Both the position numbers and the translations under genes were made by a program. Of a stretch of 64,000 nt of DNA, positions 16,531 to 34,387 are shown piece after piece. The notes under the pieces are model-generated. The model had not been told where the DNA came from and did not search any database. It saw only the letters and a list, made by a program, of their open reading frames with translations. Position 1 is the stretch's first letter. Each line of letters starts with the position of its first letter. The DNA comes from Deltaproteobacteria bacterium (GTDB taxonomy: Bacteria; Myxococcota; Myxococcia; Myxococcales; Anaeromyxobacteraceae), in NCBI GenBank assembly GCA_016214955.1, contig JACRMN010000020.1, positions 62,001 to 126,000 on the forward strand. The letters are read 5' to 3'.

Positions 16531-16546
16531 TGGCGCGCCGGTTGCT
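16531..16546 (+). promoter_or_regulatory. Sigma-54 (-24/-12) promoter of aor
   Basis: TGGCGCGCCGGTTGCT differs from the consensus TGGCACGNNNNTTGCT at one position only and keeps the GG/GC doublets ten bases apart. Predicted start near 16557, 30 bases before the aor ATG. GAGGAAA eight bases before the ATG is the ribosome-binding site. Confidence 0.78.
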
Positions 16547-16586
16547 ATGGCTCCGGCCAGCGCCAACCCCAGCGAGGAAAGACCAG

Positions 16587-18323
16587 ATGGACAAGATCCT
16601 GCGAGTCGACATGAGTGCCAAGGGCGGCCCGAAGGCGTCGGTGGAGCCGGTGGGCAAGTACGTCGGCCTCGGCGGGCGGGGCATGACCTCCCTCATCGTC
16701 GCCGACGAGGTGGACCCGGCCTGCCACCCGCTCTCCGCCGCCAACAAGCTGGTCTTCGCCCCCGGCCTGCTGGCCGGCACCAGCGCCTCGACCAGCGGCC
16801 GCATCTCGGTGGGCTGCAAGAGCCCCCTCACCGGCGGGATCAAGGAGGCCAACGCCGGCGGGCAGGCGGGCATGGCGCTCGGGCGCCTCGGCTACGCCGC
16901 CGTCATCTTCGAGGGCGCGCCGGCCGGCGACGACCTCTGGAAGGTGCTCATCGACAAGAACGGCGTCTCCTTCAGCGTCGACAACAGCTGCCGGGGGCTC
17001 GGGAACTACGACACCGTCGAGAAGCTGGTGAAGGTGCACGGCGAGAAGTGCGCCTACGTCACCATCGGCCAGGCAGGCGAGATGAAGCTCGGCGCCGCCT
17101 CGATCGCCTGCACCGACCGCGAGCTCCGGCCCACCCGCCACATGGGGCGCGGCGGCGTCGGCGCGGTGATGGGGTCGAAGAAGATCAAGGCCATCGTCGT
17201 CGACGAGTCGGGCACCACCCCGCCGCAGCCCAGGGACCCGGCCCGTTTCAAGGAGGCCGCAAAGGCCTGGGTGGAGGGGCTGAAGCGGCACGCCGTCTCG
17301 GGCCAGGGCCTGCCGGCCTTCGGCACCAACGTGCTCACCAACGTGCTCAACGAGGCCGGGGGCTACCCGACCTTCAACTTCAAGGAGGGCCGCTTCGCCG
17401 GCGCCTCGAAGATCAGCGGCGAGACCCAGGCGCAGCTGGAGATCGACCGCGGCGGGCTCGCGACCCACGGCTGCCAGCGCGGCTGCACCATCCAGTGCTC
17501 GGGCATCTTCCACGACAAGGAAGGGAAGTACGTCACCAAGCAGCCCGAGTACGAGACCGTCTGGTCCCACGGCGGCAACTGCGGGATCGACGACCTCGAC
17601 GTCATCGCCCAGCTCGACCGCATGGACGACGACTTCGGCCTCGACACCATCGAGATGGGCGTGACCATCGGCGTCGCCATGGAGGCCGGCGTCATCCCCT
17701 TCGGCGACGCGGCCGGGGCCCTCCGGCTCCTGGGTGAGGTGGGCAAGGGCACGCCGCTCGGCCGCATCCTCGGCTCGGGCGCGGGCGTCACCGGCAAGGT
17801 GTTCGGCGTCGAGCGCGTCCCGGTGGTGAAGAACCAGGCGCTGCCCGCGTACGATCCCCGCGCCGTGCAGGGGCAGGGCGTCACCTACGCCACCTCGCCC
17901 ATGGGCGGTGACCACACCGCCGGCTACGCGGTGGCCACCAACATCCTCAAGGTGGGCGGCTTCGTCGATCCGTTGAAGCCCGAGGGGCAGGTCGAGCTCT
18001 CGCGCAACCTGCAGATCGCCACCGCCGCGGTGGACTCCACCGGAATGTGCCTGTTCGTGGCCTTCCCGGTGCTCGACCAGCCCGACACCTTCCAGACGCT
18101 GATCGATCTCCTCAACGCGCAGTACGGCCTCTCGCTGGTGGGCGACGACGTCGCCGCCCTGGGCAAGAAGGTCCTCTCGGCGGAGCGCGGCTTCAACTCG
18201 CGGGCGGGGCTCGGCGTCGAGCAGGACCGGCTGCCGCGCTTCTTCGAGCAGCAGCCGCTCGCCCCCCACAACGTGGTCTTCGGCGTGAAGCCGGAGGAGC
18301 TGGATCGGGTCTTCAACTGGTGA
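16587..18323 (+). CDS. aor: Tungsten-containing aldehyde:ferredoxin oxidoreductase
   Basis: Oxidises aldehydes to carboxylic acids and passes electrons to ferredoxin, using a bis-pyranopterin tungsten centre and one [4Fe-4S] cluster. 578 residues. The start is the ATG preceded by GAGGAAA. Family landmarks are KYVGLGGRGMTS near the N-terminus and THMGRGG-like TRHMGRGGVGAVMGSKKIKA for pterin binding. Cluster ligands are Cys296, Cys300, Cys304 and, far downstream, Cys488. The first three are spaced CX3CX3C, whereas classical AOR has CX2CX3C. Beside tungstate transport, moaA/moeA and a maturase its metal is almost certainly tungsten. The substrate may be the aldehyde made by the nearby alcohol dehydrogenase. 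Confidence 0.9.
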   Translation: MDKILRVDMSAKGGPKASVEPVGKYVGLGGRGMTSLIVADEVDPACHPLSAANKLVFAPGLLAGTSASTSGRISVGCKSPLTGGIKEANAGGQAGMALGRLGYAAVIFEGAPAGDDLWKVLIDKNGVSFSVDNSCRGLGNYDTVEKLVKVHGEKCAYVTIGQAGEMKLGAASIACTDRELRPTRHMGRGGVGAVMGSKKIKAIVVDESGTTPPQPRDPARFKEAAKAWVEGLKRHAVSGQGLPAFGTNVLTNVLNEAGGYPTFNFKEGRFAGASKISGETQAQLEIDRGGLATHGCQRGCTIQCSGIFHDKEGKYVTKQPEYETVWSHGGNCGIDDLDVIAQLDRMDDDFGLDTIEMGVTIGVAMEAGVIPFGDAAGALRLLGEVGKGTPLGRILGSGAGVTGKVFGVERVPVVKNQALPAYDPRAVQGQGVTYATSPMGGDHTAGYAVATNILKVGGFVDPLKPEGQVELSRNLQIATAAVDSTGMCLFVAFPVLDQPDTFQTLIDLLNAQYGLSLVGDDVAALGKKVLSAERGFNSRAGLGVEQDRLPRFFEQQPLAPHNVVFGVKPEELDRVFNW

Positions 18324-18627: not shown

Positions 18628-19452
18628 ATGCCGGAGGCCGCGCTCGCCGACTTCCTGCGGAGCCGCGCCGAGGGAGACCTGCTCCCCTGGGCGGCCCAGG
18701 TCGAGGGGGCCGCGCGGTCGGGCGCCGGCCTGGCGGAGGTCGAGCTCGCGGCCCTGCGGGCGGGCCTGCTCCCGGCGCGCTACCGGCGCAACCGGAGCAC
18801 CCTCACCGTCGAGGACCAGCTCCGGCTGCACCTGTCGCGGGTCGGGATCGTGGGCTGCGGCGGGCTGGGCGGCTATCTCGTCGAGGAGCTGGCCCGGCTG
18901 GGCGTGGGCACGCTGGTCCTGGTGGATCCCGACGTCTTCGAGGAGCACAACCTGAACCGGCAGCTCCTCTCCACGCCGGCCCGCCTCGGCGCCGCCAAGG
19001 TGGAGGTGGCGCGGGACCGGGTGGCCGAGGTCAACCCGGCCGCGACCGTCGTCGCCCACCGGGAGGCGCTCTCCGCCGCCAACGGAGCGCGGCTGCTGGC
19101 CGGCTGCTCCGCGGTCGCCGACGGCCTCGACAGCGTGCGGGTGCGCCGCGAGCTGGCGGCGGTCTGCCGCGGCCTCGGCGTGCCGCTGGTTCACGGCGCC
19201 ATCGCCGGCTGGTACGGACAGGTGGCCGTGCAGCTCCCCGGAGCGGACCTCTCCCCCCTGCTGCGGGAGACGCCCGGCGGCAAGGGGATCGAGACCGCGC
19301 TCGGGAACCCGGCCTTCACCCCCGCGGTGGTGGCCAGCCTGCAGGTGGCCGAGGTCGCGAAGCTGCTGCTCGGCCGCGGCAAGGCGCTGGCCGGGCGGGT
19401 CCTGCACCTCGACCTGCTGGAGATGCGGTTCGAGGAGCTGCCGCTCGGCTGA
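18628..19452 (+). CDS. ThiF/MoeB/HesA-family adenylyltransferase (E1-like)
   Basis: 274 residues. The Rossmann nucleotide-binding region is VGIVGCGGLGGYLVEELARLG, followed by LVDPDVFEEHNLNRQLL with the conserved Asp and Arg of the adenylation site. The zinc-binding CXXC pairs of classical MoeB are not visible and the N-terminal 60 residues are extra. It probably adenylates the C-terminus of the adjacent MoaD-like protein. Confidence 0.88.
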   Translation: MPEAALADFLRSRAEGDLLPWAAQVEGAARSGAGLAEVELAALRAGLLPARYRRNRSTLTVEDQLRLHLSRVGIVGCGGLGGYLVEELARLGVGTLVLVDPDVFEEHNLNRQLLSTPARLGAAKVEVARDRVAEVNPAATVVAHREALSAANGARLLAGCSAVADGLDSVRVRRELAAVCRGLGVPLVHGAIAGWYGQVAVQLPGADLSPLLRETPGGKGIETALGNPAFTPAVVASLQVAEVAKLLLGRGKALAGRVLHLDLLEMRFEELPLG

Positions 19453-20529: not shown

Positions 20530-21735
20530 ATGAGCAGCTTCAACATCGCCTCGACAGAGTTCCCCCTGCGAAACTTCCACGCCACGCCGCGAGCCACCAT
20601 CGGCTGGGGCGCCTACCGCATGGCCGGCGAGGAGGCCAAGGCCATCGGCATCCGCAACGCCCTCATCGTCAGCTCGGGCCTGAAGGGCACCGGCATCCTC
20701 GACGAGGTCGCGGGGGTGCTGAAGGCCGCCGGCATCGGCGTCAGCATCTACGCCGGCGTGACCTCCAACCCCAAGGACCACGAGGTCCACGCCGCCCACA
20801 AGCTCTTCAAGCAGGCCAAGTGCGACGGCGTGGTCTCGGTGGGCGGCGGCAGCTCCCACGACTGCGCCAAGGCGGTGCGCATCGTCGACGCCCACGACGG
20901 CCAGAGCATCCGCGAGTTCAACGGGATGTGCACCACCAAGAAGCCCATCACCGTGCCGCAGCTGGCCATCACCACCACCGCCGGCACCGGCTCGGAGACC
21001 AGCTGGGCCGCGGTCATCACCGACACCCAGAAGATGTACAAGATGGTGATCTTCGACCCCAACATCATCTCGTCGCGCGCCATCGTCGACCCGGCGCTGA
21101 TGCGCACCATGCCGCCCTTCCTGACGGCCTGGACCGGGATGGACGCCATGACCCACGCCGTCGAGGCCTACGTCTCGCGCCTCGGCGTCCGCACCTCGCA
21201 GGGGCTCGGCATCCACGCCATCAAGATGATCGCCAAGGGGCTGCGCGACGCCTACGCCAACCCCACCAACGCCGAGGCCCGCGAGAACATGGCCTGGGCC
21301 CAGTACACCGCCGGCCACGCCTTCAACAGCGCCGGGCTGGGCATCGTCCACTCCATGGCCCACACCCTGGGCGCGCTCTTCGACTCGCCGCACGGCCAGT
21401 GCAACGCCATCGGCCTCATCCCGGTGGAGCGCTACAACATGGTGGCCTGCCCGGACAAGTTCCGGGACATCGCCGAGGCCATGGGCGTCGACACCCGCGG
21501 CATGACCACCTGGAAGGCGGCCGAGGCGGCGGTGGACGAGCTGGAGCAGCTCCGCAGCGACCTCGGCATCACCGAGACCTTCGCCACCCTCGGGCTCAAG
21601 GAGGAGCACCTGGAGAAGTTCACCCCCATCGTGCTCCAGGACGTGTGCACCGGCGGCAACCCCCGCCAGGTCACCTCCGACGTGGTGAAGATGATCTTCC
21701 GCCAGTGCATGAAGCCGGGCGCCAACGGGAAGTAG
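20530..21735 (+). CDS. Iron-containing alcohol dehydrogenase (mycofactocin-associated type)
   Basis: 401 residues of the group III Fe-dependent alcohol dehydrogenase family. VSVGGGSSHDCAKAVRI (GGGS nucleotide motif) and TTTAGTGSETSWAAV are present, and the metal-site His residues lie in GMDAMTHAVEAYVS, HSMAHTLGALFDSPHGQCNA and nearby. Such enzymes in mycofactocin-positive bacteria, like the actinobacterial Mno methanol dehydrogenases, hold NAD tightly and need an external redox partner. Here it lies 800 bases upstream of mftA. Start ATG chosen by AAAGGGG upstream. It probably supplies aldehyde to AOR. Confidence 0.9.
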   Translation: MSSFNIASTEFPLRNFHATPRATIGWGAYRMAGEEAKAIGIRNALIVSSGLKGTGILDEVAGVLKAAGIGVSIYAGVTSNPKDHEVHAAHKLFKQAKCDGVVSVGGGSSHDCAKAVRIVDAHDGQSIREFNGMCTTKKPITVPQLAITTTAGTGSETSWAAVITDTQKMYKMVIFDPNIISSRAIVDPALMRTMPPFLTAWTGMDAMTHAVEAYVSRLGVRTSQGLGIHAIKMIAKGLRDAYANPTNAEARENMAWAQYTAGHAFNSAGLGIVHSMAHTLGALFDSPHGQCNAIGLIPVERYNMVACPDKFRDIAEAMGVDTRGMTTWKAAEAAVDELEQLRSDLGITETFATLGLKEEHLEKFTPIVLQDVCTGGNPRQVTSDVVKMIFRQCMKPGANGK

Positions 21736-21940: not shown

Positions 21941-22471
21941 ATGACTCTGCCTTTGCTGGTGGCGATCAGCGTGATGTGGATTCCGGTGGCCATCCTCTTC
22001 CTGGGAAAGGGCGAGCCGCGAAGCACCGGGGCGGTGACGGGCTTCGTGGGCGCGGTGGTGGTGGTCGGCGCCTTCGTCCAGGCGGCCGTCTTCAAGGACC
22101 CGTTCACCGCCGGGCTCCTGCTGGTACACGGGCTGCTCTACTGCACCGTCGGCTACGCGCTGCTGGCCGGGCTCGAGGACCTGCGCTCGGTGGGCAACGT
22201 CGCCCTGACGGTGGCCGTGGTCTCGGCCATCTACATGGTCCTGTTCTTCACCGGTGGGCCGGTCCTTCCCGACGGCAAGCAGCTCGTCGCCAAGAGCGAC
22301 TACCTGGCGCTGGCCTGCGCCGGCTACGTGGTCCTGACGATCGAGGTCTGGCTCAACGCCTACGGGAAGTTCCCGGCCCGTGGGCTGGCGCTGTCGCTCA
22401 TCGCCTGGGCCTTCGTCGGCCTCTGGGCGCCGGCATTCTGGCTCCTGGCGGCCGGCCGGCTTCCCTTCTAG
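21941..22471 (+). CDS. AmiS/UreI-family small-amide/urea channel-like membrane protein
   Basis: 176 residues with six or seven membrane segments. The C-terminus (YGKFPARGLALSLIAWAFVGLWAPAFWLL) matches the pattern of UreI/AmiS proton-gated channels, and the N-terminal half has the same repeated hydrophobic layout. UreI and AmiS conduct urea or short amides. The natural solute here is unknown; a small alcohol, aldehyde or acid is conceivable given the neighbours. ATG at 21941, with GGGGAGA upstream. Confidence 0.7.
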   Translation: MTLPLLVAISVMWIPVAILFLGKGEPRSTGAVTGFVGAVVVVGAFVQAAVFKDPFTAGLLLVHGLLYCTVGYALLAGLEDLRSVGNVALTVAVVSAIYMVLFFTGGPVLPDGKQLVAKSDYLALACAGYVVLTIEVWLNAYGKFPARGLALSLIAWAFVGLWAPAFWLLAAGRLPF

Positions 22472-22552: not shown

Positions 22553-22705
22553 ATGGCAAGGCAGAAGAAGGCGAAGGCAACCAAGGAGCGGCGCGCGGGC
22601 TCGGCTCGGCCGCCCGCACCCCCGCAGGCCGATGGCGAGCCTCGGGTGCTCGAGGAGATCCGCATCGAGGAGCTGGCCATCGACGGGATCTGCGGCGTCT
22701 ACTGA
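22553..22705 (+). CDS. mftA: Mycofactocin precursor peptide MftA
   Basis: A 50-residue peptide with a Lys/Arg-rich N-terminus and the diagnostic C-terminus EELAIDGICGVY. In known systems MftC decarboxylates and crosslinks the terminal Val-Tyr to make the redox cofactor. The canonical ending is IDGMCGVY; Met to Ile is the only change. Start ATG has AAGGAG seven bases upstream. It is followed by mftB after 10 bases. Confidence 0.95.
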   Translation: MARQKKAKATKERRAGSARPPAPPQADGEPRVLEEIRIEELAIDGICGVY

Positions 22706-22715
22706 CGGAGGGTGA

Positions 22716-23027
22716 ATGGCCCCCGCTCCCGCCACCGCCCGCCGTTCCGCCTCCCCGCGCTCCGGGGAGGCGGAGGAGAGGTGCTACCGGCTCGCGCCCG
22801 GCTGCCAGGTGCGGGCCGAGCGCTTCGGCCTCCTCTTCTACGACCTCTCCGGCCCACGGCTGCTGTTCGCCGAGACCGGCGACCTCCTCCCGGCCTCGCT
22901 CCTGCGCGCGGGTGGCTCGCCCGGCCAGGCGCTGCGAGGCCGCACCGCGGCAGAGCGCCGGCGGACGGCGCAGCTCCTCGACCTCCTCGTCCGGAAGGGG
23001 TTCCTCCATGAGCAACCGGTTCGTTGA
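22716..23027 (+). CDS. mftB: Mycofactocin peptide chaperone MftB (RRE protein)
   Basis: 103 residues, PqqD-like RiPP recognition element that presents MftA to MftC. YRLAPGCQVRAERFGLLFYDLSGPRLLF is the typical beta-strand region, with a helical C-terminus ending LVRKGFLHEQ. The ATG follows GGAGGGTGA. It overlaps mftC by 20 bases. Confidence 0.9.
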   Translation: MAPAPATARRSASPRSGEAEERCYRLAPGCQVRAERFGLLFYDLSGPRLLFAETGDLLPASLLRAGGSPGQALRGRTAAERRRTAQLLDLLVRKGFLHEQPVR

Positions 23028-24063
23028 CGCAGGCCTCTCGGCCCCGGTGAACCTCACCTGGGAGGTGACGCTGGCCTGCAACCTGCGGTGCCGGCACTGC
23101 CTCTCCTCGTCGGGGCGGCCGGCGGTGGGGGAGCTCGACACCGCCGAGGCGCTCCAGGCGGTGGAGCAGCTGCACGGGGCCGGCGTGTTCCAGGTGAACT
23201 TCGGCGGGGGAGAGCCGTTCCTGCGCCCCGACTTCGAGGAGATCCTCTCCGCCTGCCACGATCGCGGGCTCGTCACCTGCATCTCCACCAACGGGACCCT
23301 GCTCGACCAGGCCCGGGTCCGCCGGCTCTCCAGGAGTCGCCTGGTGGCCATCCAGGTGAGCCTGGACGGCGCCCGGCGCGAGACCTGCGACGCCATCCGC
23401 GGCGAGGGCACCTTCGCCGAGGCGCTGCACGCGCTCCGGCTCCTCGCCAGCAGCCCCATTCCCACCAGCATCAACACCGTGCTCACCGGCCCCAACGCCG
23501 CCGAGATCCCCGACCTCCACCGGCTGGCCGGCTCGCTGGGGGTCTCCCTGCGGGTCTCGCGCTTCCGGCCCTCGGGGCGCGGCGCCGTCGACTGGGAGGC
23601 CCTGCGCCCGACGGCGAGCCAGCTCCTCGCCTTCTCGGCCTGGCTCTCCACCGAGGCGGGGGTGCGCACCGGGGACAGCTTCTTCTCGCTCACCTCGCAG
23701 GAGCGCCAGGGGCTGGGCCTCAACCTCTGCGGCGCCGCCAAGCTCACCTGCTGCCTGGGGCCGCGGGGCGACCTCTACCCCTGCGCCTTCCTGCAGCGCC
23801 GCGAGTTCCGCGCCGGCTCGCTCCGCCGCCGGTCGTTCGCCGAGATCTGGCGGGAGTCGCCGGTCTTCGAGAGCTTCCGCAGCCTGCGCATCCACTCCTG
23901 CGAGAGCTGCCAGCGGTTCGACCAGTGCCACGGCGGCTGCCCGGCGGTGGCCTACCACCTGGGCCGCGGCGTGGGCGGCGGGGATCCCGAGTGCCTGATG
24001 GAGTGCGTCACCACCCTGGGCGGGCCCGCCCCGCGTCCGGCCGTGCAGGAGCCCACGCCATGA
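23008..24063 (+). CDS. mftC: Mycofactocin maturase MftC (radical SAM/SPASM)
   Basis: 351 residues. Oxidatively decarboxylates and crosslinks the C-terminal Val-Tyr of MftA. The SAM cluster is LACNLRCRHC (Cys24, Cys28, Cys31), with GGGEPFLRPD as the SAM-binding loop. The SPASM region carries LCGAAKLTCC, LYPCAF and CESCQRFDQCHGGCP for two auxiliary clusters. The stop overlaps the next ATG (ATGA). Confidence 0.95.
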   Translation: MSNRFVDAGLSAPVNLTWEVTLACNLRCRHCLSSSGRPAVGELDTAEALQAVEQLHGAGVFQVNFGGGEPFLRPDFEEILSACHDRGLVTCISTNGTLLDQARVRRLSRSRLVAIQVSLDGARRETCDAIRGEGTFAEALHALRLLASSPIPTSINTVLTGPNAAEIPDLHRLAGSLGVSLRVSRFRPSGRGAVDWEALRPTASQLLAFSAWLSTEAGVRTGDSFFSLTSQERQGLGLNLCGAAKLTCCLGPRGDLYPCAFLQRREFRAGSLRRRSFAEIWRESPVFESFRSLRIHSCESCQRFDQCHGGCPAVAYHLGRGVGGGDPECLMECVTTLGGPAPRPAVQEPTP

Positions 24064-26027
24064 TGTTCCCGCAGCTCTTCTCCCCGGTCCGGCTCGGCCG
24101 CGTCGAGCTCAAGAACCGCATCTCCTTCCAGCCTCACCTCACCAACTTCGCCGTCGACACCCTGCCCTCGGAGAAGCACGTCCACTACTGGGGCGAGCGG
24201 GCCAAGGGCGGGGCCGGCCTCATCGTCACCGAGGAGATGAGCGTCCACCCCACCGACAGGGCCTACGAGAAGCTCATCGAGGTCTTCCGGCCCGAGGTGA
24301 TCCCCGGCTTCCGCAGGATCACCGACCGGGTGCACGAGTTCGGCGCCCGCACCTTCGCCCAGATCAACCACAACGGGCAGCAGTGCGACGGCACCCTCTC
24401 CCGCCTCCCGGTCTTCGCGCCCAGCCCGGTCGCCGACCCGCTCTTCCGGGAGATCCCGAAGGAGATGGAGCCGGAGGACATCGAGGAGGTGGCCCGCTAC
24501 TTCGCCCGCAGCGCCGTCCACGTCCGCGAGGGAGGGTTCGACGGGATCGAGCTGCAGTTCGGCCACTCCAGCCTGGCGCGGCAGTTCCTCTCGCCCCTCT
24601 CCAACCAGCGCACCGACGAGTTCGGCGGCAGCGTCGAGAACCGGATGAGGGCGCCGCTCCTCTTCATCGCCGCGGTGCGCAAGGCGGTGGGGCCGGACTT
24701 CACCGTCGGCATCCGCCTCTGCGCCGACGAGATGATCCCCTGGGGCGGGCTCAACCTCGCCGACGTGCAGGAGCTGGCGGTGCGCTTCGAGGCCGCCGGG
24801 CTCATCGACTTCATGGATCTGTCGATCGGCACCTTCTACAACCTCTTCCTGGTCGAGGGCTCGATGCACACGCCCCTCGGCTACACCGTGCCGCTGGCCG
24901 CCGGGATCCGCTCCCGCATCCGGCTCCCGGTCTTCTGCACCGGCCGCATCAACGACCCGACCATGGCGGAGAAGGTGCTGGTCAACGGCCAGGCCGACGT
25001 CATCGGCATGTGCCGGGCGCTCATCTGCGACCCCTTCCTGCCGCAGAAGGCCCAGGAAGGCCGGCTGGGCGACATCCGCTCCTGCGTGGCCGACAACCAG
25101 AACTGCATCGGCCGCATCGGGATGAACAAGACGCTGGGCTGCATCCAGAACCCTGCGGTGGGCCTGGAGAAGGAGTGGGGCGAGGGCACGCTGCGGCCGG
25201 CGCCGGTGAAGAAGCGGGTGGTGGTGGTGGGCGGCGGGCCCGCCGGCATGTGGGCCGCCAAGATGGCCGGGCGGCGCGGCCACGCCGTCGACCTCTACGA
25301 CAAGGGCGAGCAGCTCGGCGGGCAGGTGCTGCTCGCCATGAAGGGGGCCGGGCGCGAGGAGTTCGGCGTCCTGGTGCGCAACGAGAAGGCGCAGGTGGAG
25401 AAGGCGGGCGTGCGCGTCCACCTCGGCGTGGAGGTGACCCCGGAGCTGGTGGCGGCCACCCGGCCCGACGTCGTCATCTGCGCCACCGGCAGCGTCCCGG
25501 CCCGCAACCCGCGCATCGGGGGCGCCAGGGGGCCGGCGGTGTGGAACGTCTGGGAGGTGCTGCAGGGCAAGGCGGAGCTGGGGCAGAAGGTGTGCCTGGT
25601 CGACACCGACGGCCACCACCGCGCCACCGCCACCGCGGAGCTGATCGCTTCTCAGGGCCGGAGCGTGCACGTCCTCTGCTCCAGCCTGTTCGTGGGCGCC
25701 GAGCTCGGCCCCACCCAGGACCTGTACCTCACCCGCCAGCGGCTCCTGCAGAAGGGCTGCACCTTCACGCCCGACATCGCCGTCCTGGAGGTCGCCGGCG
25801 CCGCCGGAGAGAAGCGGCTCAAGGGGGTCAACGTCTACTCCAACGCCACCCAGGAGTTCGGCCCCTACGACTCGGTGGTGCTGGCCATCGAGCAGGAGGT
25901 GGAGGACCAGCTCTACCGCGCGCTCAAGCACCAGGTGAAGGAGCTCTACCGCATCGGCGACTGCGTGGCGCCGCGCAAGGTGGACATGGCCATCTGGGAA
26001 GGGCACCGCGTGGGGAGGGAGATATGA
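24060..26027 (+). CDS. FadH/Old Yellow Enzyme-type flavoprotein of the mycofactocin system
   Basis: 655 residues with 2,4-dienoyl-CoA reductase architecture: an FMN TIM barrel (1-330), an Fe-S segment (about 340-365), then FAD and NAD(P) domains starting KKRVVVVGGGPAGMWAAKMAG. Fe-S ligands expected as CX2CX3CX11C are here Cys342, Asp345, Cys349 and Cys361, so the second Cys is Asp. Proteins of this family are annotated as mycofactocin-system oxidoreductases in other genomes. It probably moves electrons between reduced mycofactocin and the ETF encoded next. Coupled on both sides by ATGA overlaps. Confidence 0.88.
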   Translation: MMFPQLFSPVRLGRVELKNRISFQPHLTNFAVDTLPSEKHVHYWGERAKGGAGLIVTEEMSVHPTDRAYEKLIEVFRPEVIPGFRRITDRVHEFGARTFAQINHNGQQCDGTLSRLPVFAPSPVADPLFREIPKEMEPEDIEEVARYFARSAVHVREGGFDGIELQFGHSSLARQFLSPLSNQRTDEFGGSVENRMRAPLLFIAAVRKAVGPDFTVGIRLCADEMIPWGGLNLADVQELAVRFEAAGLIDFMDLSIGTFYNLFLVEGSMHTPLGYTVPLAAGIRSRIRLPVFCTGRINDPTMAEKVLVNGQADVIGMCRALICDPFLPQKAQEGRLGDIRSCVADNQNCIGRIGMNKTLGCIQNPAVGLEKEWGEGTLRPAPVKKRVVVVGGGPAGMWAAKMAGRRGHAVDLYDKGEQLGGQVLLAMKGAGREEFGVLVRNEKAQVEKAGVRVHLGVEVTPELVAATRPDVVICATGSVPARNPRIGGARGPAVWNVWEVLQGKAELGQKVCLVDTDGHHRATATAELIASQGRSVHVLCSSLFVGAELGPTQDLYLTRQRLLQKGCTFTPDIAVLEVAGAAGEKRLKGVNVYSNATQEFGPYDSVVLAIEQEVEDQLYRALKHQVKELYRIGDCVAPRKVDMAIWEGHRVGREI

Positions 26028-27085
26028 GCCTGGCGGGAGTCCTGGTCTTCGCCGACCTCTCCTCGGGTTCGCTCGACGACGCCGGCAAGGGCATCCTGGC
26101 CGAGGGGCGGCGGCTGGCCGAGACCCTGGGCGCTCCCTGGGCGGCCGCCTGCTTCGCCGGCGCGCCCGACGGCGCCTACGAGGCCATGCGCCCCTACGGC
26201 GTCCCCGAGGTGCTCGACATCCGCGGACCCGAGGAGCTGGCCGACCTGCCCTGCGCCCAGGCCGAGGCCCTGGCCGACGCCGCGCGCGCCTGCGGGGCCC
26301 GGGTGGTGCTGCTGGCCCACGACGACCCGGGCGCGACGCTGGCGCCGCGGATCGCCGCGCGGCTGGGTGCGGCGCTGTTCACGGAGGCGGTCTCGTTCTC
26401 CCGAGACTGGGACGGGCTCACGGTGCGCAGGCGGGCCGTGGGGGTGCAGGTGGTGGAGCAGCGGCTCTGGAACGAGGCCGCGCCCGGGGGCGGATCGCCC
26501 TACGGCCGGCGCGACGAGCCCACCCCGCTGGTGCTCACCATGCTGCCGCGGGTGCTCTCGGCGGCGGTGGTCCCCGGCATGCGGCCGGGGCCGGCCCGTC
26601 GCACCGCGCGGCTGGCTGCGGTGAGCGAGGCCGGCGCCGCCACCCGGGTGCGGGCGCGCATCCCGCCCGACCCGCGCACCGTCGACGTGGCCGAGGCCCA
26701 GGTGATCTTCGCGGCCGGCCTGGGCTGCGATCGCGAGAGCTTCGCCCAGCTCTGCGAGCTCGCCGATCGGGTCGGGGCCTCGGTGGGCGTGAGCCGCCCG
26801 GTCTACGACCTCGGCTGGAAGGAGCTCCCGCGCATGATCGGCCAGACGGGAAAGACGGTGGGGCCGAGGCTGTACTTCGCCTGGGGCATCTCCGGCTCCA
26901 TGCACCACCTGGGCGGCATCGGCGGCTCGCGCCGCATCGTCTGCCTCAACGCCGACCCCAAGGCGCCCATCTTCCCGGCCGCCGACGAGGGCTTCGTGGC
27001 CGATCTGCGCGAGGTGCTGCCGCGCCTGCTGGCGGCGGTCGGCGCCCGCGCGCAGCGGGACGGAGAGCGGGAGGTGGCGGGATGA
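26024..27085 (+). CDS. etfA: Electron transfer flavoprotein alpha subunit (mycofactocin-associated)
   Basis: 353 residues. The C-terminal FAD domain has YFAWGISGSMHHLGGIGGS and LNADPKAPIFPAADEGFVADL, hallmarks of EtfA/FixB. The N-terminal domain resembles the EtfB fold. It should pair with the EtfB encoded 2.6 kb downstream. Overlaps both neighbours by four bases. Confidence 0.92.
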   Translation: MSLAGVLVFADLSSGSLDDAGKGILAEGRRLAETLGAPWAAACFAGAPDGAYEAMRPYGVPEVLDIRGPEELADLPCAQAEALADAARACGARVVLLAHDDPGATLAPRIAARLGAALFTEAVSFSRDWDGLTVRRRAVGVQVVEQRLWNEAAPGGGSPYGRRDEPTPLVLTMLPRVLSAAVVPGMRPGPARRTARLAAVSEAGAATRVRARIPPDPRTVDVAEAQVIFAAGLGCDRESFAQLCELADRVGASVGVSRPVYDLGWKELPRMIGQTGKTVGPRLYFAWGISGSMHHLGGIGGSRRIVCLNADPKAPIFPAADEGFVADLREVLPRLLAAVGARAQRDGEREVAG

Positions 27086-28380
27086 AGCGCAGCTTCGAGG
27101 CCATCGTGGTGGGCGCCGGACCGGCCGGAGCGACCGCCGCGCTCACGCTGGCGCGCGCCGGCGTGGACGTGGCGCTGGTGGAGCGCGGCGCCCACCCGGG
27201 CGAGAAGAACATGTTCGGCGGCGTGCTCCACCGCATGCCGGCGCTGGAGCGAGTCTTCCCCGACTTCTGGGACCGCGCCCCGCTGCAGCGCCACCTGGTC
27301 AAGAAGGTGCTCACCTTCATGACCCCGGGCCGCAGCCTCAACCTCGAGTACGAGACCGAGAGCTTCGACCGGGCCCCCTACAACGGCTACACGGTGTTCC
27401 GTCCCCACTTCGACCGCTGGCTCGCCGGCGAGGCCGCCCGGGCCGGGGCCACGCTCCTCACCCGCTGCACGGTGGAGGGCGTGGTGCGCGAGGGCGGCAA
27501 GGTGGCGGGCATCACCGTGCTGCGCGGCGCCGGCGAGCTGCGGGCGCCGGTGGTGATCGCCGCCGACGGCGTCCTCTCCTTCACGGCGGCCAGCGCCGGC
27601 CTGCGCCGCCCCCGCTTCGATCCCGGCCAGCTGGGCCTGGGGGTGAAGGCGCTCCTCGAGCTGCCCAAGGAGGTCATCGACGACCGCTTCGGCCTGGTGC
27701 GCGACCAGGGCGCCTCGCGCGAGTTCGTGGGATCGTCCTCCGGCGTCCGCGGCGGCGGCTTCCTCTACACCAACTACGACTCGCTCTCGGCCGGCATGGT
27801 GCTGCACCTCGACAGCCTGCGCCGGAGCGGCCGGACGCCGTACGACCTGTTCAACGCCTTCCTGGCCCAGCCGCAGGTGGCCAAGCTGGTGCGCGGCGCC
27901 CGGCTCCTCGAGTACTCGGCCCACCTCATCCCCGAGGGCGGCTACCGGATGATGCCGGAGCTGTGCGGCGACGGGATCCTGGTGGCGGGCGACGCCGCCG
28001 CCTTCTGCTACGCCAAGGGGCCCAACCTGGAGGGCATCAACCTGGCGGCCCAGTCGGGCGCCTGCGCCGCCGAGGCGGTGCTGGAGGCGCGCCAGGCCGG
28101 GGACTGGTCGGCCCGCCGGCTCGCCGGCTACCGGCGCCGGCTCGAGGCCACCTTCGTGCTGCAGGACCTGCGCACCTTCCACCGGGCCGGGGAGCTGCTG
28201 GAGATCGACCGGCTCTACGGCGACTACCCCGAGCTCATCTGCGACTTCATGGACCGGATGTACCGCATCGACGGCGCGCCCAAGCAGAGCCTCCTCAAGA
28301 TGGGGCTCGCCATGGCTCGCAAGAAGGTGGGCACCGCCAACCTGGTGCGCGACGGCTGGACCACCTGGAGCACCATCTAG
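27082..28380 (+). CDS. fixC: FixC-like ETF:quinone oxidoreductase
   Basis: 432 residues. FAD-binding GXGXXG is IVVGAGPAGATAALTLARAG and the second FAD motif is GILVAGDAAAFCYAKGPNLEGIN. ETF-QO/FixC proteins accept electrons from ETF and, with a FixX ferredoxin, reduce quinone at the membrane. It sits between etfA and fixX and is presumably the exit to the respiratory chain for mycofactocin electrons. Confidence 0.92.
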   Translation: MKRSFEAIVVGAGPAGATAALTLARAGVDVALVERGAHPGEKNMFGGVLHRMPALERVFPDFWDRAPLQRHLVKKVLTFMTPGRSLNLEYETESFDRAPYNGYTVFRPHFDRWLAGEAARAGATLLTRCTVEGVVREGGKVAGITVLRGAGELRAPVVIAADGVLSFTAASAGLRRPRFDPGQLGLGVKALLELPKEVIDDRFGLVRDQGASREFVGSSSGVRGGGFLYTNYDSLSAGMVLHLDSLRRSGRTPYDLFNAFLAQPQVAKLVRGARLLEYSAHLIPEGGYRMMPELCGDGILVAGDAAAFCYAKGPNLEGINLAAQSGACAAEAVLEARQAGDWSARRLAGYRRRLEATFVLQDLRTFHRAGELLEIDRLYGDYPELICDFMDRMYRIDGAPKQSLLKMGLAMARKKVGTANLVRDGWTTWSTI

Positions 28381-28389
28381 GGAGCGCGC

Positions 28390-28671
28390 ATGATCAACGT
28401 CGACGACCTCCTCGACTACACCAGCTTCACCGTCGACCGCGAGGCCCACATCGTGCTCGACCCGGCGCACTGCGCCGCCTGCTCCCACCGCTACTGCACC
28501 ACCACCTGCCCGGCCCGCTGCTACGCCTGGTCCGAGAAGGACCGGAAGATGAGCTTCGTGCACGACGGCTGCCTGGAGTGCGGCACCTGCTACGCCGTCT
28601 GCGACAGCCACGCCTTCGCGCGCTGGCGCTACCCGCGGGGCGGCTTCGGCGTCTCCTACCGCATGACCTGA
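28390..28671 (+). CDS. fixX: FixX-like ferredoxin
   Basis: 93 residues with nine cysteines. HCAACSHRYCTTTCPARCY precedes GCLECGTCYAVC (Cys61, Cys64, Cys67, Cys71), giving the [4Fe-4S] arrangement of FixX, the iron-sulfur partner of FixC. The first Cys block has an additional CXXC compared with most FixX. Ten bases after fixC. Confidence 0.9.
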   Translation: MINVDDLLDYTSFTVDREAHIVLDPAHCAACSHRYCTTTCPARCYAWSEKDRKMSFVHDGCLECGTCYAVCDSHAFARWRYPRGGFGVSYRMT

Positions 28672-28680
28672 GGTGCGCCA

Positions 28681-29571
28681 ATGGGCAACGGGCATGGCCT
28701 CGAGGTGCTGGTGCTGTTGCGGGAGACGCGCGACCCGCGGCCGCCGGTGCGGCTGCTGGCGAGCGGCGCGGCCCTGCGCAGCACCGGGCTGCGGCGGGTG
28801 GTCAATCCCGCCGACCTGGCGGCGCTGGAGGTGGCGGTCGCCCGGCCGGGCGCGGTGGTGACCGCGCTGGCGGTGGGCGGGGAGGAGCTCGACGACGCCC
28901 TGCGGCTGGGGCTCTCCATGGGGGCGGCGCGGGCCATCCGCATCTGGGACGAGGCGCTGCGCGACGGCGACGCCGTGGCCGAGGCCCGGGTGCTGCGCCG
29001 GACCCTGGAGATCCTGCGGCCCACGCTCTTCCTCACCGGGAGCAGTCTGCTCGACCGCGGGGACGACGCCTCGGCGGCCCTGGCGGGAGCGGGGCTGGGC
29101 ATGGCCTGCGCCCGCCAGGTGGTCTCGCTGGCGCTGGAGCGCGGTCGCGCCCTGGCGATTCGCCGGGCCGAGAAGGGCTGGCGCGAGGAGGTCGAGCTCC
29201 GCCTGCCGTGCACCGTGCTCGTCGACGCCGGCGCCGCCGAGCCGCGCTACCCCGATCTGCCGTCGGTGCTCGGGGCCCTGGCGGCGCCGGTGGCCGTCTG
29301 GGGGCTCGCCGAGCTCGGGCTCCCGGCCTGGGAGCTCGGCTTCGACGGCGCGGCGCTCCGGCCGGTGGGCCTGGCGGCGCCCCGCTCCGACCCGCTGCGG
29401 GTGGAGACGCCCGACCCGTCGCAGCCCGCCCACGAGCGGGTGAGGTCCCTGTTCTCCGGCGGCATCCGGCCGCGCCAGGGGCGCGTCCACCTCGGCAGCG
29501 CAGGCCAGGCGGTCGAGCGCATCCTCGCCATCTTCGCCGAGGAGGGGCTGCTCCCTGGAGGCGGCCCGTGA
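28681..29571 (+). CDS. etfB: Electron transfer flavoprotein beta subunit (mycofactocin-associated)
   Basis: 296 residues. Recognised by the EtfB fold order (LEVLVLLRETRDP at the start, NPADLAALEVAVA, ALAVGGEELDDALRLGLSMGAARAIRIWD, PTLFLTGSSLLDRGDD) and by its place in an etfA-fixC-fixX-etfB set. It diverges from common FixA and has a C-terminal extension of about 50 residues of unknown role. GTGA overlap with mftF. Confidence 0.85.
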   Translation: MGNGHGLEVLVLLRETRDPRPPVRLLASGAALRSTGLRRVVNPADLAALEVAVARPGAVVTALAVGGEELDDALRLGLSMGAARAIRIWDEALRDGDAVAEARVLRRTLEILRPTLFLTGSSLLDRGDDASAALAGAGLGMACARQVVSLALERGRALAIRRAEKGWREEVELRLPCTVLVDAGAAEPRYPDLPSVLGALAAPVAVWGLAELGLPAWELGFDGAALRPVGLAAPRSDPLRVETPDPSQPAHERVRSLFSGGIRPRQGRVHLGSAGQAVERILAIFAEEGLLPGGGP

Positions 29572-30989
29572 GCTACCGGCTGGCGCCAGGGGTGAGCCGG
29601 GTACAGCTGGCCGACGGGCCGGCGCTGCTGGCTCGCGTCCCGCTGCGGCTCGTCCGGGTGAACGAGGCCCTGGCGCGCCTGCTGGGCGACGGCGCCGAGG
29701 TGGCGGCGCGCTCCCTCGCCGAGCGGCGCGCCCTGGAAGCGCTCGCCGAGCGCGGGTGGCTGCGGGTCCGGCGCGGCCCGCCGGCAGCCGAGGAGGCCTG
29801 GCCCGCGGTGAGCGTCGTCATCCCGGTGCGCGACAGGGAGGCGGAGCTCGGGCGCTGCCTGGCGTCGCTCTCGCTCCTCCGCCATCCGCCCGGCAAGCTC
29901 GAGATCCTGGTGGTCGACGACGGAAGCCGCGACCGCTCCGCGGAGGTGGCCCGGCGCGCCGGAGCGCGGGTGCTCTCCTCGGGCGGCGAGGGGCGGGGCC
30001 CGGCGGCGGCCCGCAACCGGGCGGCGGCCGTGGCCCGGGGCGAGATCCTGGCCTTCCTCGACTCGGACTGCACCGCCTCGGCGGAGTGGCTCGCCGAGCT
30101 CCTCGAGCCCTTCTCCGACCCCGAGGTCGCGGCGGTCGGCGGGATGGTGGAGGGCATGCATCGCGGCACGGCGCTCGACCGCTACGAGGCCGAGATGTCG
30201 AGCCTGAGCCTGGGGCGGCAGGGCCGCTCGGCCGGCGCCGGAGCCGACACCTTCTACCTGCCGAGCTGCAACCTGCTGGTGCGGCGCAGCGCCTTCGCCG
30301 CCGCCGGCGGCTTCCGCGAGGAGCTGCGGGTGGGCGAGGACGTCGACCTCACCTGGCGGCTGCGCGACGCCGGGAGCCGCATCGTCTACCTGCCGGAGGG
30401 CAGCGTCCTCCACGAGCACCGCAACCGCCTGCCGGCCTTCCTGCGCCGCCGCTTCGAGTACGGGACCTCGGAGGCCCTGCTGCACCGGCTCCACCCGGAA
30501 CGTCGCAAGCGCCTGGTGCTACCCCCGGGCGCGACGCTGGCGGTGGTCCTGGCGACGGCGGCGGCCCTGGCCCTCTCCTGGCAAGTGGCGGCAGGCTGCG
30601 CCGCGGTGCTCCTGCTCGACGGCGCGCTCTGCGAGGTGCGGGCTCGCCGCCTGGGCCTCGCCCTGCCGCCGGGGAGCGTGGCCCTGGCCCGGATCCGCGG
30701 GGCCACCAGCCTCGCCTACCACCTCGCCCTGCACCTCGTCCGCTACTACGCGCTGGTGCTGCTGGCGGGGGCCGTGCTCTGGCCCCGCCTCGGCCTGCTC
30801 GCCGCCGGCATGGCCCTCGGGGCCGCGGCCGTCGACCACCGGGTCCGCCGGCCGGCGCTGTCGTTCCCGGCCTTCCTCCTGCTCTGGCTGGCGGAGCACC
30901 TCGCCTACGGCAGCGGCGTGCTGGCCGGCTGCCTGCGGACGCGCGACTTCGGCAGCTACCGCCCCATCGTCGGCGCGAGCGATCCATGA
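29568..30989 (+). CDS. mftF: Mycofactocin glycosyltransferase MftF
   Basis: 473 residues. A family 2 glycosyltransferase domain begins VSVVIPVRDREAELGRCLASL and continues through VVDDGSRDRS, LDSDCTAS (DXD-like) and GEDVDLTWRL. About four C-terminal membrane helices follow. In mycobacteria MftF adds an oligoglucose chain to the cofactor. The N-terminal 75 residues are an MftF-type leader domain. Start GTG overlaps the etfB stop. Confidence 0.9.
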   Translation: MSYRLAPGVSRVQLADGPALLARVPLRLVRVNEALARLLGDGAEVAARSLAERRALEALAERGWLRVRRGPPAAEEAWPAVSVVIPVRDREAELGRCLASLSLLRHPPGKLEILVVDDGSRDRSAEVARRAGARVLSSGGEGRGPAAARNRAAAVARGEILAFLDSDCTASAEWLAELLEPFSDPEVAAVGGMVEGMHRGTALDRYEAEMSSLSLGRQGRSAGAGADTFYLPSCNLLVRRSAFAAAGGFREELRVGEDVDLTWRLRDAGSRIVYLPEGSVLHEHRNRLPAFLRRRFEYGTSEALLHRLHPERRKRLVLPPGATLAVVLATAAALALSWQVAAGCAAVLLLDGALCEVRARRLGLALPPGSVALARIRGATSLAYHLALHLVRYYALVLLAGAVLWPRLGLLAAGMALGAAAVDHRVRRPALSFPAFLLLWLAEHLAYGSGVLAGCLRTRDFGSYRPIVGASDP

Positions 30990-32125
30990 CGCCCTCCGGA
31001 TCGACAGCCGCGCCGTCGCCCAGGGCGCTGACGCTCGCCATCACCTCCCGCTGCGCTCTGCGCTGCCGCCACTGCCTCGTGGAGAGCGGCCCCGGCGCCG
31101 GGCCCGGAGACGTCCCGCTGGCGCGGTGCCTGGCGGTGGTGCGGGAGCTGGCGGCCCTGGGCGGCGAGGAGATCTGGCTCACCGGCGGCGAGCCCATGCT
31201 GCACGCCGCCTGGGGCGAGATCCTGGCCCACTGCGGGCCGCAGCGCTTCCGCACCGTCGGGCTCCAGACCAGCGGCCACCTCCTCGGGGAGGACCAGGTG
31301 GCCACCCTGCGAGATCTCTCGCTCGAGGGGCTGCGCGTCGAGGTGAGCCTGGACGGCGCCAGCCAGCGCTCGCACGACCTGGTTCGCGGACCCGGCACCT
31401 TCCGGCGTGCGCTCGACGGCATCCACCGGATGGCGCGGGCCGGGATGGCGGGCCGCGTCGTCGTCGCCTTCACCGAGATGCGGCACAACCTCGCGGAGCT
31501 GCCCCAGCTCCTGGACCTGGCGGACGGGCTCGGCCTCCAGGGAGTGCGGAGCTCGACCCTGCTGCGCGGGGGGCGCGCCGCGGGCGGAGGCCAGGTCGAG
31601 CCGCCGGCGCCCGAGCAGGTGCAGGCGCTCCTGGCGCGCTACCACGGCGACGGTGCGTTCCGCGCCCTCTACGACGAGCTCGGGCGGGCCCCGGCCATCG
31701 AGTGGTGGAAGGGCCGGGGCCATCGCGGGGGCGAGGGCTGCCTGCCCGGAGAGCGCCCCTACCTGGCTGCCGACGGCACGCTGTACCCCTGCGCCCTCTC
31801 CCGGGCCGCCGAGACCGCGGTGGAGGGCGCGCTCGAAGGGCCGCTCTCGGCCTCGCTCGCCGTGGCGCGAGGGCGCTGGGGTGCGCTCCGCGCCCGCTGC
31901 GCCGGCCTGGCCAGCCCCCCGGCGGCCTGCCGGGCGTGTCCGGCCCGATCGAGCTGTGCCGGCGGCTGCCCGGCGAGGAGCGGCGCCGACGGCGGCAGCC
32001 CGCTCGGCCCCGAGGACCGCTGTGACCTGCGGCGCGCCGTCCACGGCTGGGAGGGACCGGACGGAGTCGCCGCGGCCCCCTCCCGCTCCCCCTTCGCCGA
32101 TCCCCCCGGAGGCTTCCCATGCTGA
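30986..32125 (+). CDS. Second radical SAM/SPASM protein in the mycofactocin operon
   Basis: 379 residues. Cluster TSRCALRCRHC (Cys23, Cys27, Cys30), SAM loop LTGGEPMLHA and a Cys-rich SPASM-like C-terminus (YPCAL, CRACPARSSCAGGCP). Related to, but clearly distinct from, MftC. No second precursor peptide is visible beside it, so it may modify mycofactocin further or act on a protein such as AOR or ADH. ATGA overlap with mftF; its 3' end overlaps the MoxR gene by seven bases. Confidence 0.88.
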   Translation: MTPSGSTAAPSPRALTLAITSRCALRCRHCLVESGPGAGPGDVPLARCLAVVRELAALGGEEIWLTGGEPMLHAAWGEILAHCGPQRFRTVGLQTSGHLLGEDQVATLRDLSLEGLRVEVSLDGASQRSHDLVRGPGTFRRALDGIHRMARAGMAGRVVVAFTEMRHNLAELPQLLDLADGLGLQGVRSSTLLRGGRAAGGGQVEPPAPEQVQALLARYHGDGAFRALYDELGRAPAIEWWKGRGHRGGEGCLPGERPYLAADGTLYPCALSRAAETAVEGALEGPLSASLAVARGRWGALRARCAGLASPPAACRACPARSSCAGGCPARSGADGGSPLGPEDRCDLRRAVHGWEGPDGVAAAPSRSPFADPPGGFPC

Positions 32126-33021
32126 ACGACGTGGACGAAGTGAAGCGGACGCTCGAGCTGGCCGGCTACATCGCCGACGAGGGCATCTCCACCGCGGTGT
32201 ACCTGGCCGCCTCCATGGGAAAGCCCATCCTCATCGAGGGGCCGCCGGGCGTGGGCAAGACGGCGCTCGCCAAGGCCCTCGCCGGCGCGCTCGACCACCC
32301 GCTCATCCGCCTCCAGTGCTACGAGGGCATCGACGAGGGCAAGGCCCTCTACGACTGGGAGTACGGCAAGCAGCTCCTCTACACCCAGCTGCTGCGCACC
32401 CAGCTCGACGGCCAGCTGCGGGGTGCCGCCTCGCTCTCGGAGGCGGTGGGGAGGCTGGCCGGCGAGGAGAGCCTCTTCTTCTCCGAGCACTTCCTGGTGC
32501 AGCGGCCGGTGCTGCGCGCCTTTCGCGCCGAGAAGCGGGCGGTGCTGCTCATCGACGAGATCGACCGCTCCGACGACGAGTTCGAGGCGCTGCTCCTGGA
32601 GGCGCTCTCCGACTTCCAGATCTCCATCCCCGAGCTGGGGGTGGTGGAGGCGCGCCACAGGCCGCTGGTGGTGCTCACCAGCAACGCCACCCGGCTCATC
32701 TCCGACGCCCTGCGCCGCCGCTGCCTCTACCTCCACATCGGCTACCCGGAGCAGGAGCGGGAGGTGGCCATCGTCCGCCACCGCGTGCCCGAGACCTGCG
32801 AGCTGCTCGCCGAGCAGCTGGTGGCCTTCCTGCGGAAGGCGCGCACCATCGGGCTGCGCAAGCCCCCCAGCGTCTCCGAGGGCATCGACTGGGCGCGGGT
32901 GCTCTCGCTCCTGCGGGCCAAGGAGCTGACGAGGAAGGTGGTGCTGCACACCGCCGGCGCCATCGCCAAGCACCAGGCCGACGTGCTCCGCATCCACGAG
33001 CTGGCGGCGGAGCTGGGCTGA
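32119..33021 (+). CDS. MoxR-family AAA+ ATPase
   Basis: 300 residues. Walker A GPPGVGKTALAK, Walker B VLLIDEIDRSDDEFEA and sensor LTSNATRLISDALRRRC match the CoxD/MoxR group. These ATPases work with VWA-domain partners to mature or activate metalloenzymes, such as CO dehydrogenase and methanol dehydrogenase. Operon position suggests a chaperone for ADH, AOR or an Fe-S enzyme of this locus. Confidence 0.92.
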   Translation: MLNDVDEVKRTLELAGYIADEGISTAVYLAASMGKPILIEGPPGVGKTALAKALAGALDHPLIRLQCYEGIDEGKALYDWEYGKQLLYTQLLRTQLDGQLRGAASLSEAVGRLAGEESLFFSEHFLVQRPVLRAFRAEKRAVLLIDEIDRSDDEFEALLLEALSDFQISIPELGVVEARHRPLVVLTSNATRLISDALRRRCLYLHIGYPEQEREVAIVRHRVPETCELLAEQLVAFLRKARTIGLRKPPSVSEGIDWARVLSLLRAKELTRKVVLHTAGAIAKHQADVLRIHELAAELG

Positions 33022-33022
33022 C

Positions 33023-34387
33023 GTGGAGCGCCTGGTCGTCGGCTTCGTGCGCCTCCTGCGCCGCGCCGGGCTTCGGGTCTCCCCCGGCGAGACCCTGGAC
33101 GCCGTCCAGGCGCTGGCGGCCACCGGCCTGGCGGACCGGGCTCGGGCCCGGGCGGCCCTGCGGCTCACCCTGGTGAAGAGCGAGGCCGAGCTCGGCCGCT
33201 TCGATGCGCTCTTCGACGGCTACTTCGGAGAGGCTACGCCGGCGCGTGGCCCGGGCGCCCTGCCGGCCGACGCCGCCGCCGTCGCGGCCGAGGGCCGGTG
33301 GCGCCCGGCGGCGCAAGGCGACGAGGGAGAGCGCTCGGGCGCGAAGCTGCTCGTGGAGACCGGGGAGGAGGACGGGCTGGAGCTCGACCTCGACACCCTC
33401 ACGCCGGTGGAGGGCGACTCCGAGGGGGGAGCGCGGATGGCGGTGCAGTCGCGCCGGTTCCGCGGCGGGAGGGCCGACAAGCCGCGCCCCATTCATCACA
33501 CCCGGGGGCCCATCTACCTGCGCACCGACGACGACTTCCTCTCCCGCTGGCGCAACGAGGGGGTGAAGCCCTTCCCGCCGGAGGAGGAGGCCGCCATGGA
33601 GGAGGTGGTCGCCCGGATGGTGAAGCGGCTGCGGAAGGACGCCCGCGACCTGCGCAGCGACGAGAAGCGCGGCCGGCTGGCGGTGGTCAAGACCCTGCAG
33701 CGCAACTACCGCCACGGCCTGGTGCCCTTCGTCCGGGTGCTGCGCCGCCAGCGCAAGGAGCGGCCGCGCCTGGTGGTGCTCTGCGACGTCAGCTACTCGG
33801 TGAGCCACGCCTCCCGCTTCCTCCTGCTGCTCGTCCACACGCTGCAGCAGGGGCTCCTCGACGTGCGCAGCTTCGTCTTCAACCGGCAGATCGCGGAGGT
33901 CACCGACCTCCTGCGCAGCCTGCCCATCAACGCGACCCTGGAGCGCATCGAGGGGGGCGGTGCCGTCAGCCTGGAGGACGACAGCGACTTCGGGAGCGCC
34001 TTCCTCGCCTTCCAGGCGAGCCACCTCCCCAGCCTGCGGGGGCGGCCGGCGGTGGTGATCCTGGGCGACGCCCGCAACAACTACAACCCGGCCCACGAGG
34101 AGGTGCTGGCCGCGATCCGGGAGCGGGCCAGCACCGTGCTCTGGCTCACGCCCGAGGACCGGGGCTCCTGGGAGCTGGGGGACTGCCTGATGAACACCTA
34201 CGGACCGCTCTGCGACCGGGTGGAGGTGGTGCGGAACGTCGAGGAGCTGTCGCGGGTGGTGGAGGAGCTGGTCCGGGGAGGCGGTGTCGGCGGCGGCGCG
34301 GAGCGGGAGCGGGAGCGGCCGCGGGCACCGGCGGCCGCGGCCCGGAGACCGGGGTGGACCCACGGCGGCCAGCGGGTCGAGACCTGA
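33023..34387 (+). CDS. CoxE-type VWA-domain protein
   Basis: 454 residues. The C-terminal half holds a von Willebrand A domain with a MIDAS-like LVVLCDVSYSVSH (DXSXS), preceded by a charged linker. CoxE proteins partner with MoxR/CoxD ATPases. One base separates it from the ATPase gene. The product ends in an Arg/Ala/Pro-rich tail of low complexity. Confidence 0.88.
   Translation: MERLVVGFVRLLRRAGLRVSPGETLDAVQALAATGLADRARARAALRLTLVKSEAELGRFDALFDGYFGEATPARGPGALPADAAAVAAEGRWRPAAQGDEGERSGAKLLVETGEEDGLELDLDTLTPVEGDSEGGARMAVQSRRFRGGRADKPRPIHHTRGPIYLRTDDDFLSRWRNEGVKPFPPEEEAAMEEVVARMVKRLRKDARDLRSDEKRGRLAVVKTLQRNYRHGLVPFVRVLRRQRKERPRLVVLCDVSYSVSHASRFLLLLVHTLQQGLLDVRSFVFNRQIAEVTDLLRSLPINATLERIEGGGAVSLEDDSDFGSAFLAFQASHLPSLRGRPAVVILGDARNNYNPAHEEVLAAIRERASTVLWLTPEDRGSWELGDCLMNTYGPLCDRVEVVRNVEELSRVVEELVRGGGVGGGAERERERPRAPAAAARRPGWTHGGQRVET

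Follow-up and report, generated by a model that had tools for sequence, protein, structure and literature searches.

The window, i.e., the whole stretch of 64,000 nucleotides analyzed here, originates from an Anaeromyxobacter-like host genome and contains a mycofactocin (mft) operon. The first gene of this operon encodes an iron-containing alcohol dehydrogenase (Fe-ADH) resembling the NDMA-methanol dehydrogenase (20530–21735; PF00465; TIGR04266, 367 bits, below the cut-off of 625), and is followed by a gene for an AmiS/UreI-like membrane protein. Next come the genes for the variant-type mycofactocin precursor MftA with the core ELAIDGICGVY (22553–22705; NF040489 and TIGR03969 over cut-off), the MftB chaperone (RRE; 22716–23027; TIGR03967 over cut-off), the radical SAM maturase MftC (23008–24063; TIGR03962, 342 bits, cut-off 265) and OYE_2, the mycofactocin system FadH/OYE family oxidoreductase 2 (24063–26027; TIGR03997, 940 bits, cut-off 793). 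The electron transfer flavoprotein subunits EtfA (26024–27085) and EtfB (28681–29571), whose best NCBIfam matches, mft_etfA and mft_etfB, were both below cut-off, flank a FixC-type ETF:quinone oxidoreductase (27082–28380) and a FixX-type ferredoxin (28390–28671). The operon continues with the glycosyltransferase MftF (29571–30989; TIGR03965, 389 bits, cut-off 280), the gene under study here, a MoxR/MadB-like AAA ATPase (32119–33021; NF047784, 309 bits, below the cut-off of 475) and a MadC/CoxE-like VWA protein (33023–34387; PF05762; NF047783 below cut-off). The Fe-ADH gene and those from MftA onwards lie on the plus strand. As MftA, MftB, MftC and MftF, like OYE_2, each scored above their curated cut-offs, the locus qualifies as an mft operon. 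Further upstream, also on the plus strand, are genes for an aldehyde ferredoxin oxidoreductase (AOR; 16524–18323; PF01314 and PF02730) and for a TIGR04311 radical SAM/SPASM putative metalloenzyme maturase, a candidate AOR maturase (12282–13610; 542 bits, cut-off 400).

Two side features of the operon were recorded. The AmiS/UreI-like membrane protein between Fe-ADH and MftA (21941–22471) was 71% identical to the product of L147:1655–2179, near the mft cluster of genome G584. Besides, the OYE_2-EtfA-FixC-FixX-EtfB segment (24063–29571) resembles an electron route from mycofactocin to quinone and may be a counterpart of MftG in these lineages; according to passages of the MftG study (PMC11778925), about a quarter of the genomes with MftC lack MftG, and the replacement was left open there.

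The gene under study, hereafter rSAM2, occupies positions 30986–32125 of the plus strand, where the reading frame is open over 379 amino acids. Its ATG at 30986 shares four bases (ATGA) with the MftF stop, and its own stop is overlapped by seven bases by the MoxR gene, which starts with the ATG at 32119, so that rSAM2 is tightly packed in the operon; the earlier note had described both overlaps. The product matched the Pfam Radical_SAM domain (PF04055, E 1.9e-20), and the CxxxCxxC motif formed by C23, C27 and C30 was invariant in the alignment of orthologs. Seven further cysteines (C252, C269, C315, C318, C324, C328 and C346) were conserved across orthologs, with a single ortholog carrying serine at position 269, and their spacing fits the seven-cysteine SPASM pattern CX9-15GX4C-gap-CX2CX5CX3C-gap-C. 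The cysteine pattern is thus that of a complete 3+7 radical SAM/SPASM protein, although the Pfam SPASM model gave no score on rSAM2. Since orthologs share 34–52% identity, a chance open reading frame can be excluded. By sequence and fold, rSAM2 is a genuine radical SAM/SPASM enzyme without an earlier name. The claim that such an enzyme lies within the mft operon is therefore borne out by the domain match, the ten cysteines, the overlaps and the mft genes scoring over their cut-offs.

An AlphaFold2 model of rSAM2 (mean pLDDT 86, pTM 0.86) was closest to the solved folds of SkfB, anSME, SuiB, CteB, ChlB, PqqE and BlsE, in agreement with the profile search; with the exception of BlsE, most of these fold and profile neighbors modify peptides or proteins. 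Positions W76, Q94, E164, W240, R331 and D344-R345 were invariant and specific to the family, which also keeps an EDRCxLR motif. E164 closes the strand formed by residues 158–164 in the model, and would line the active site. The barrel begins almost at the N terminus, so that rSAM2 itself shows no leader-binding (RRE) domain; leader binding could be supplied by MftB.

Among the curated NCBIfam models, rSAM2 did not exceed any equivalog cut-off. The best scores were 96 bits for the Rv1681-type model (cut-off 380) and 81 bits for MftC (TIGR03962, cut-off 265), and rSAM2 is neither a member of PqqE (TIGR02109; 53 bits, cut-off 381) nor of W_rSAM_matur, the tungsten cofactor oxidoreductase maturase (TIGR04317; 51 bits, cut-off 380). 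A tree of 68 radical SAM proteins grouped the 19 rSAM2 sequences in one clade and the 22 MftC sequences in a separate one, each with an SH-aLRT of 100. Together with the low TIGR03962 score, this rules out that rSAM2 is a paralog of MftC or a misannotated MftC. Both enzymes belong to the same superfamily, combine a radical SAM domain with a seven-cysteine SPASM layout and are encoded in the same operon, and Q211 and R197 of rSAM2 are shared with MftC to a greater extent than with the remaining SPASM sequences. However, MftC carries other residues at the positions of E164, W76, Q94, W240 and D344-R345, and it is core to the mft system, whereas rSAM2 is optional. The peptide maturases SkfB, SuiB, CteB and ChlB match rSAM2 in fold and profile, but rSAM2 differs from them by the lack of an adjoining precursor and of a visible N-terminal RRE-like extension, at an identity of approximately 14–25%. 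The best full-length fold match was the anaerobic sulfatase-maturating enzyme anSME (TM 0.70–0.73), with which rSAM2 shares only about 14% identity, and no sulfatase gene is present in the rSAM2 operon. PqqE is likewise a SPASM enzyme, serves a RiPP redox cofactor and was matched by profile (6c8v), yet no pqq genes were seen in the operon. Finally, the TIGR04317 and TIGR04311 maturases associated with tungsten oxidoreductases are also radical SAM/SPASM proteins found near AOR; the TIGR04311 member of the window is nevertheless a different gene.

The distribution of rSAM2 was analyzed by comparison with that of the mft genes. A scan of 84,980 species with P0001 returned 11 clear orthologs at E 3e-67 or better, the next match being at only E 9e-19; this falls short of a full census, as the scan relied on exact-peptide seeds and missed orthologs with FFTEMRHN and similar sequences. 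MftC was over its cut-off in nine of these 11 species. Further members were found with a profile built from ten orthologs. With this profile, orthologs were detected in 3 of 195 Myxococcota genomes, identical to the three in which MftC was over cut-off, and in 11 of 395 Desulfobacterota genomes, each with at least 390 bits. In the latter phylum MftC exceeded its cut-off in 18 genomes, which included ten of the 11 with rSAM2. The hypergeometric p values for the overlap (8e-7 in Myxococcota, 2e-14 in Desulfobacterota) are descriptive, since shared ancestry is ignored. One further Desulfobacterota genome (G536) contained only a distant relative (222 bits) and no MftF over cut-off.

Across the 20 rSAM2 genomes examined, MftF was over cut-off in all and MftC in 17, so that rSAM2, as expected for an accessory protein, was confined to genomes with mft genes. 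The three genomes without an MftC match (G202, G205 and G373) all had MftF over cut-off. In G373, the Desulfobacterota exception, rSAM2 adjoins MftF near the edge of a short contig that starts within the upstream Fe-S membrane protein gene, and the region that harbors mftC in related loci is off the contig. Conversely, 8 of the 18 Desulfobacterota genomes with MftC lacked rSAM2, including G226, whose mft operon is on a 4.2-Mb contig, which indicates that rSAM2 is optional. When rSAM2 and MftC were compared over the same genomes, their distances were correlated (Spearman 0.51, permutation p 4e-4), to which vertical descent may contribute.

Linkage of rSAM2 to MftF, EtfB or mftC was observed in about half of the genomes, with MftF as the direct neighbor in G000, G033, G477, G373, G413 and G204. 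In a first type of context, mftABC is followed by one or two OYE genes, EtfA, FixCX or a cytochrome plus Fe-S membrane protein, and EtfB, with MftF and rSAM2 adjacent in either order and then another radical SAM gene, rSAMx. A second type consists of a sigma-54 regulator, rSAM2, Fe-ADH, MadB and MadC (G528, G546 and G584); its variant rSAM2-MadB-MadC occurs in the window and in Anaeromyxobacter oryzae, where an ADH gene comes after MadC. rSAM2 and MftC were on different contigs in G041, G197, G198, G200, G203, G230 and G508, and no mft gene was found in the available sequence flanking rSAM2 in these genomes. Overall, rSAM2 was unlinked to mft genes in roughly 8 of 20 genomes, a split that is approximate because drafts can hide linkage. 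As co-occurrence persists in the unlinked genomes, the tie between rSAM2 and mft is functional rather than a by-product of operon structure. Accordingly, rSAM2, which the earlier note had assigned to the mft operon, almost certainly belongs to the mft system in functional terms, with mft genes in every ortholog genome examined.

Besides mycofactocin, the earlier note had named AOR, ADH and the OYE protein as possible targets of rSAM2. The distribution of OYE_2 disfavors the last of these: it was missing over cut-off in 6 of 20 rSAM2 genomes and present in six of the eight MftC genomes without rSAM2, which rules it out as an obligatory target. MadB-like genes were detected in 10 of 20 rSAM2 genomes vs. 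three of eight without rSAM2, and the MoxR/VWA pair is hence discarded as an obligatory partner. AOR homologs do not discriminate either, as they were present in 19 of 20 rSAM2 genomes and in seven of the eight MftC genomes without rSAM2. None of OYE_2, AOR or MoxR/VWA thus tracks with rSAM2, and, by elimination, an MftA-derived molecule or mft-dependent dehydrogenases remain as candidates. The MftA core EE[LM]x[IV]DGICG[VI]Y was identical in genomes with and without rSAM2, and the peptide therefore bears no mark of a second modification; no rSAM2-linked change in the core was found.

The phyletic and gene-neighborhood evidence shows rSAM2 to be a radical SAM/SPASM enzyme with an accessory place in the mft systems of delta-proteobacterial-type lineages, to which it is dedicated; many of these lineages are anaerobic. 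Tailoring of mycofactocin or of its precursor is the role that we favor by elimination, with a likelihood slightly short of even. Points that suggest it are the phyletic profile, the linkage to MftF, the correlated distances, the weakening of other targets, the mostly peptide- or protein-modifying neighbors, and the retention of the SPASM cysteines and family residues, while the unchanged MftA core, the lack of a visible RRE domain in rSAM2 and the small number of genomes examined, mostly metagenome assemblies, count against it. In such a role, rSAM2 would follow MftC or work alongside it, and its substrate would derive from MftA: the peptide bound to MftB, an intermediate after its release, or the mycofactocin on which MftF acts as glycosyltransferase. 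By analogy with the family, SAM would be cleaved at a [4Fe-4S] cluster on C23, C27 and C30, and two auxiliary clusters, bound by the SPASM cysteines, would handle electrons or contact the substrate. The outcome may be a second radical-dependent modification, e.g., an oxidation or a C–C or C–heteroatom bond. This modification would be optional, since rSAM2 was missing from roughly one third of the examined genomes with MftC.

The main rival, which appears distinctly less probable, is that rSAM2 is a protein maturase that modifies a residue or forms a cross-link in an mft-dependent oxidoreductase, most likely an iron-containing ADH, with help from the MoxR/VWA (MadB/MadC-like) chaperone pair in some genomes. 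A protein target fits better in G528, G546 and G584, where rSAM2 is directly followed by Fe-ADH and MoxR/VWA, and the rSAM2-MadB-MadC order of the window, to which A. oryzae adds ADH, points in the same direction, as does the fact that the closest full-length fold match, anSME (TM about 0.7), is a protein-modifying SPASM enzyme. However, MadB-like genes occur in only half of the rSAM2 genomes, and in G413, G477, G204 and G373 the neighbors of rSAM2 are EtfB, MftF and another radical SAM gene, without an ADH match.

Another explanation concerns the maturation steps downstream of MftC. In a set of 29 genomes that includes the window genome, MftD was over cut-off in only one and MftE in none; hence, the mft systems of G000 and 28 others lack MftE over cut-off in all cases and MftD in all but G584. 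The founding mycofactocin study (PMC3023750) states, in passages that cite Geobacter members, that MftD- and MftE-type families occur in the majority of species, though not in every one. In their absence, AHDP release and deamination must fall to other enzymes, and rSAM2 could take part in a different, MftD/MftE-free path by which the product of MftC becomes active mycofactocin; steps of the canonical path are without their known enzymes here. We consider this improbable, because the eight MftC genomes without rSAM2, among them G226 with its mft operon on a 4.2-Mb contig, also lacked MftD and MftE over cut-off, which rules out rSAM2 as a general replacement of both.

It is similarly doubtful that rSAM2 is an independent RiPP maturase with a precursor encoded elsewhere and an indirect tie to mft. 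SkfB, SuiB, CteB and ChlB among its fold and profile neighbors and the unlinked rSAM2 genes would agree with this role, but rSAM2 co-occurred exclusively with MftC/MftF in the genomes searched. In line with the claim of the earlier note, the surroundings of rSAM2 in the window yielded no second precursor peptide. Moreover, a short conserved ORF, the mark of a maturase with its own precursor, and an unrelated precursor alike were absent at 18 rSAM2 loci, where only coding-shadow matches or matches limited to two close relatives appeared.

Maturation of the tungsten/molybdenum AOR or its cofactor is very unlikely, and is ruled out as a general role: rSAM2 lies in an AOR operon in G197 and AOR is a frequent mft neighbor, but AOR is as common in MftC genomes without rSAM2, the window encodes a separate TIGR04311 maturase near AOR, and rSAM2 falls far below the TIGR04317 cut-off.

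Equally remote is a loss of function of the window copy, without a current role in its host genome. Window rSAM2 was 52% identical to its A. oryzae ortholog, vs. 81% for MftC of the same pair. Codon differences were mostly amino-acid-changing in rSAM2 (169 vs. 82 silent), the reverse of MftC (64 vs. 98), and near-invariant family residues are replaced in the window copy (N24, N96, R308 and G330). Against such a loss, the open frame, all ten cysteines, the tight neighbor overlaps, E164 and the EDRC motif are kept. Judged from its sequence, the window copy is intact but fast-evolving, and the constraint on it may have been relaxed or changed, so that a different ortholog would be better suited to biochemistry.

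Mycofactocin has been characterized mainly in mycobacteria. rSAM2, a family confined to mft genomes yet missing from many of them, points to a chemical or functional branch of the cofactor outside Actinobacteria. It is possible, on the tentative side, that mycofactocin differs chemically in some delta-proteobacterial-type lineages. Their variant pathway, free of MftD and MftE, would use a second SPASM radical enzyme to introduce a further cross-link or oxidation into the MftC product, and the resulting redox cofactor would have an altered potential for ETF/quinone-linked alcohol oxidation. rSAM2 and a small, tractable set of organisms (e.g., A. oryzae) offer a handle on the question of whether mycofactocin is one molecule throughout. 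As an annotation rule, the profile defines a distinct clade, recognizable by an FTEM-type motif in which E164 is invariant and by EDRCxLR at the C-terminus. We found no description of mft loci with two radical SAM enzymes in the literature searched, which included passages of PMC3023750 and PMC11778925 and mostly excluded subscription journals.

Several recurrent neighbors were observed in other mft loci. AOR adjoins or neighbors MftF/MftC in G584, G230, G546, G528, G252, G318 and G199; a ThiF-like gene lies beside AOR in G230 and G528, and the window pair 16524–18323 and 18628–19452 thus represents recurrent mft neighbors. rSAMx, a radical SAM protein of approximately 380 amino acids below all NCBIfam cut-offs (L009:8288–9430, L014:3646–4578, L115:7776–8906 and L136:3303–4448), recurs beside MftF/rSAM2, also in loci without rSAM2, and was not seen in the window mft operon. 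A conserved Cys/His-rich protein of 103 amino acids is encoded between MadC and rSAMx (L115:7468–7779 and L118:8589–8900).
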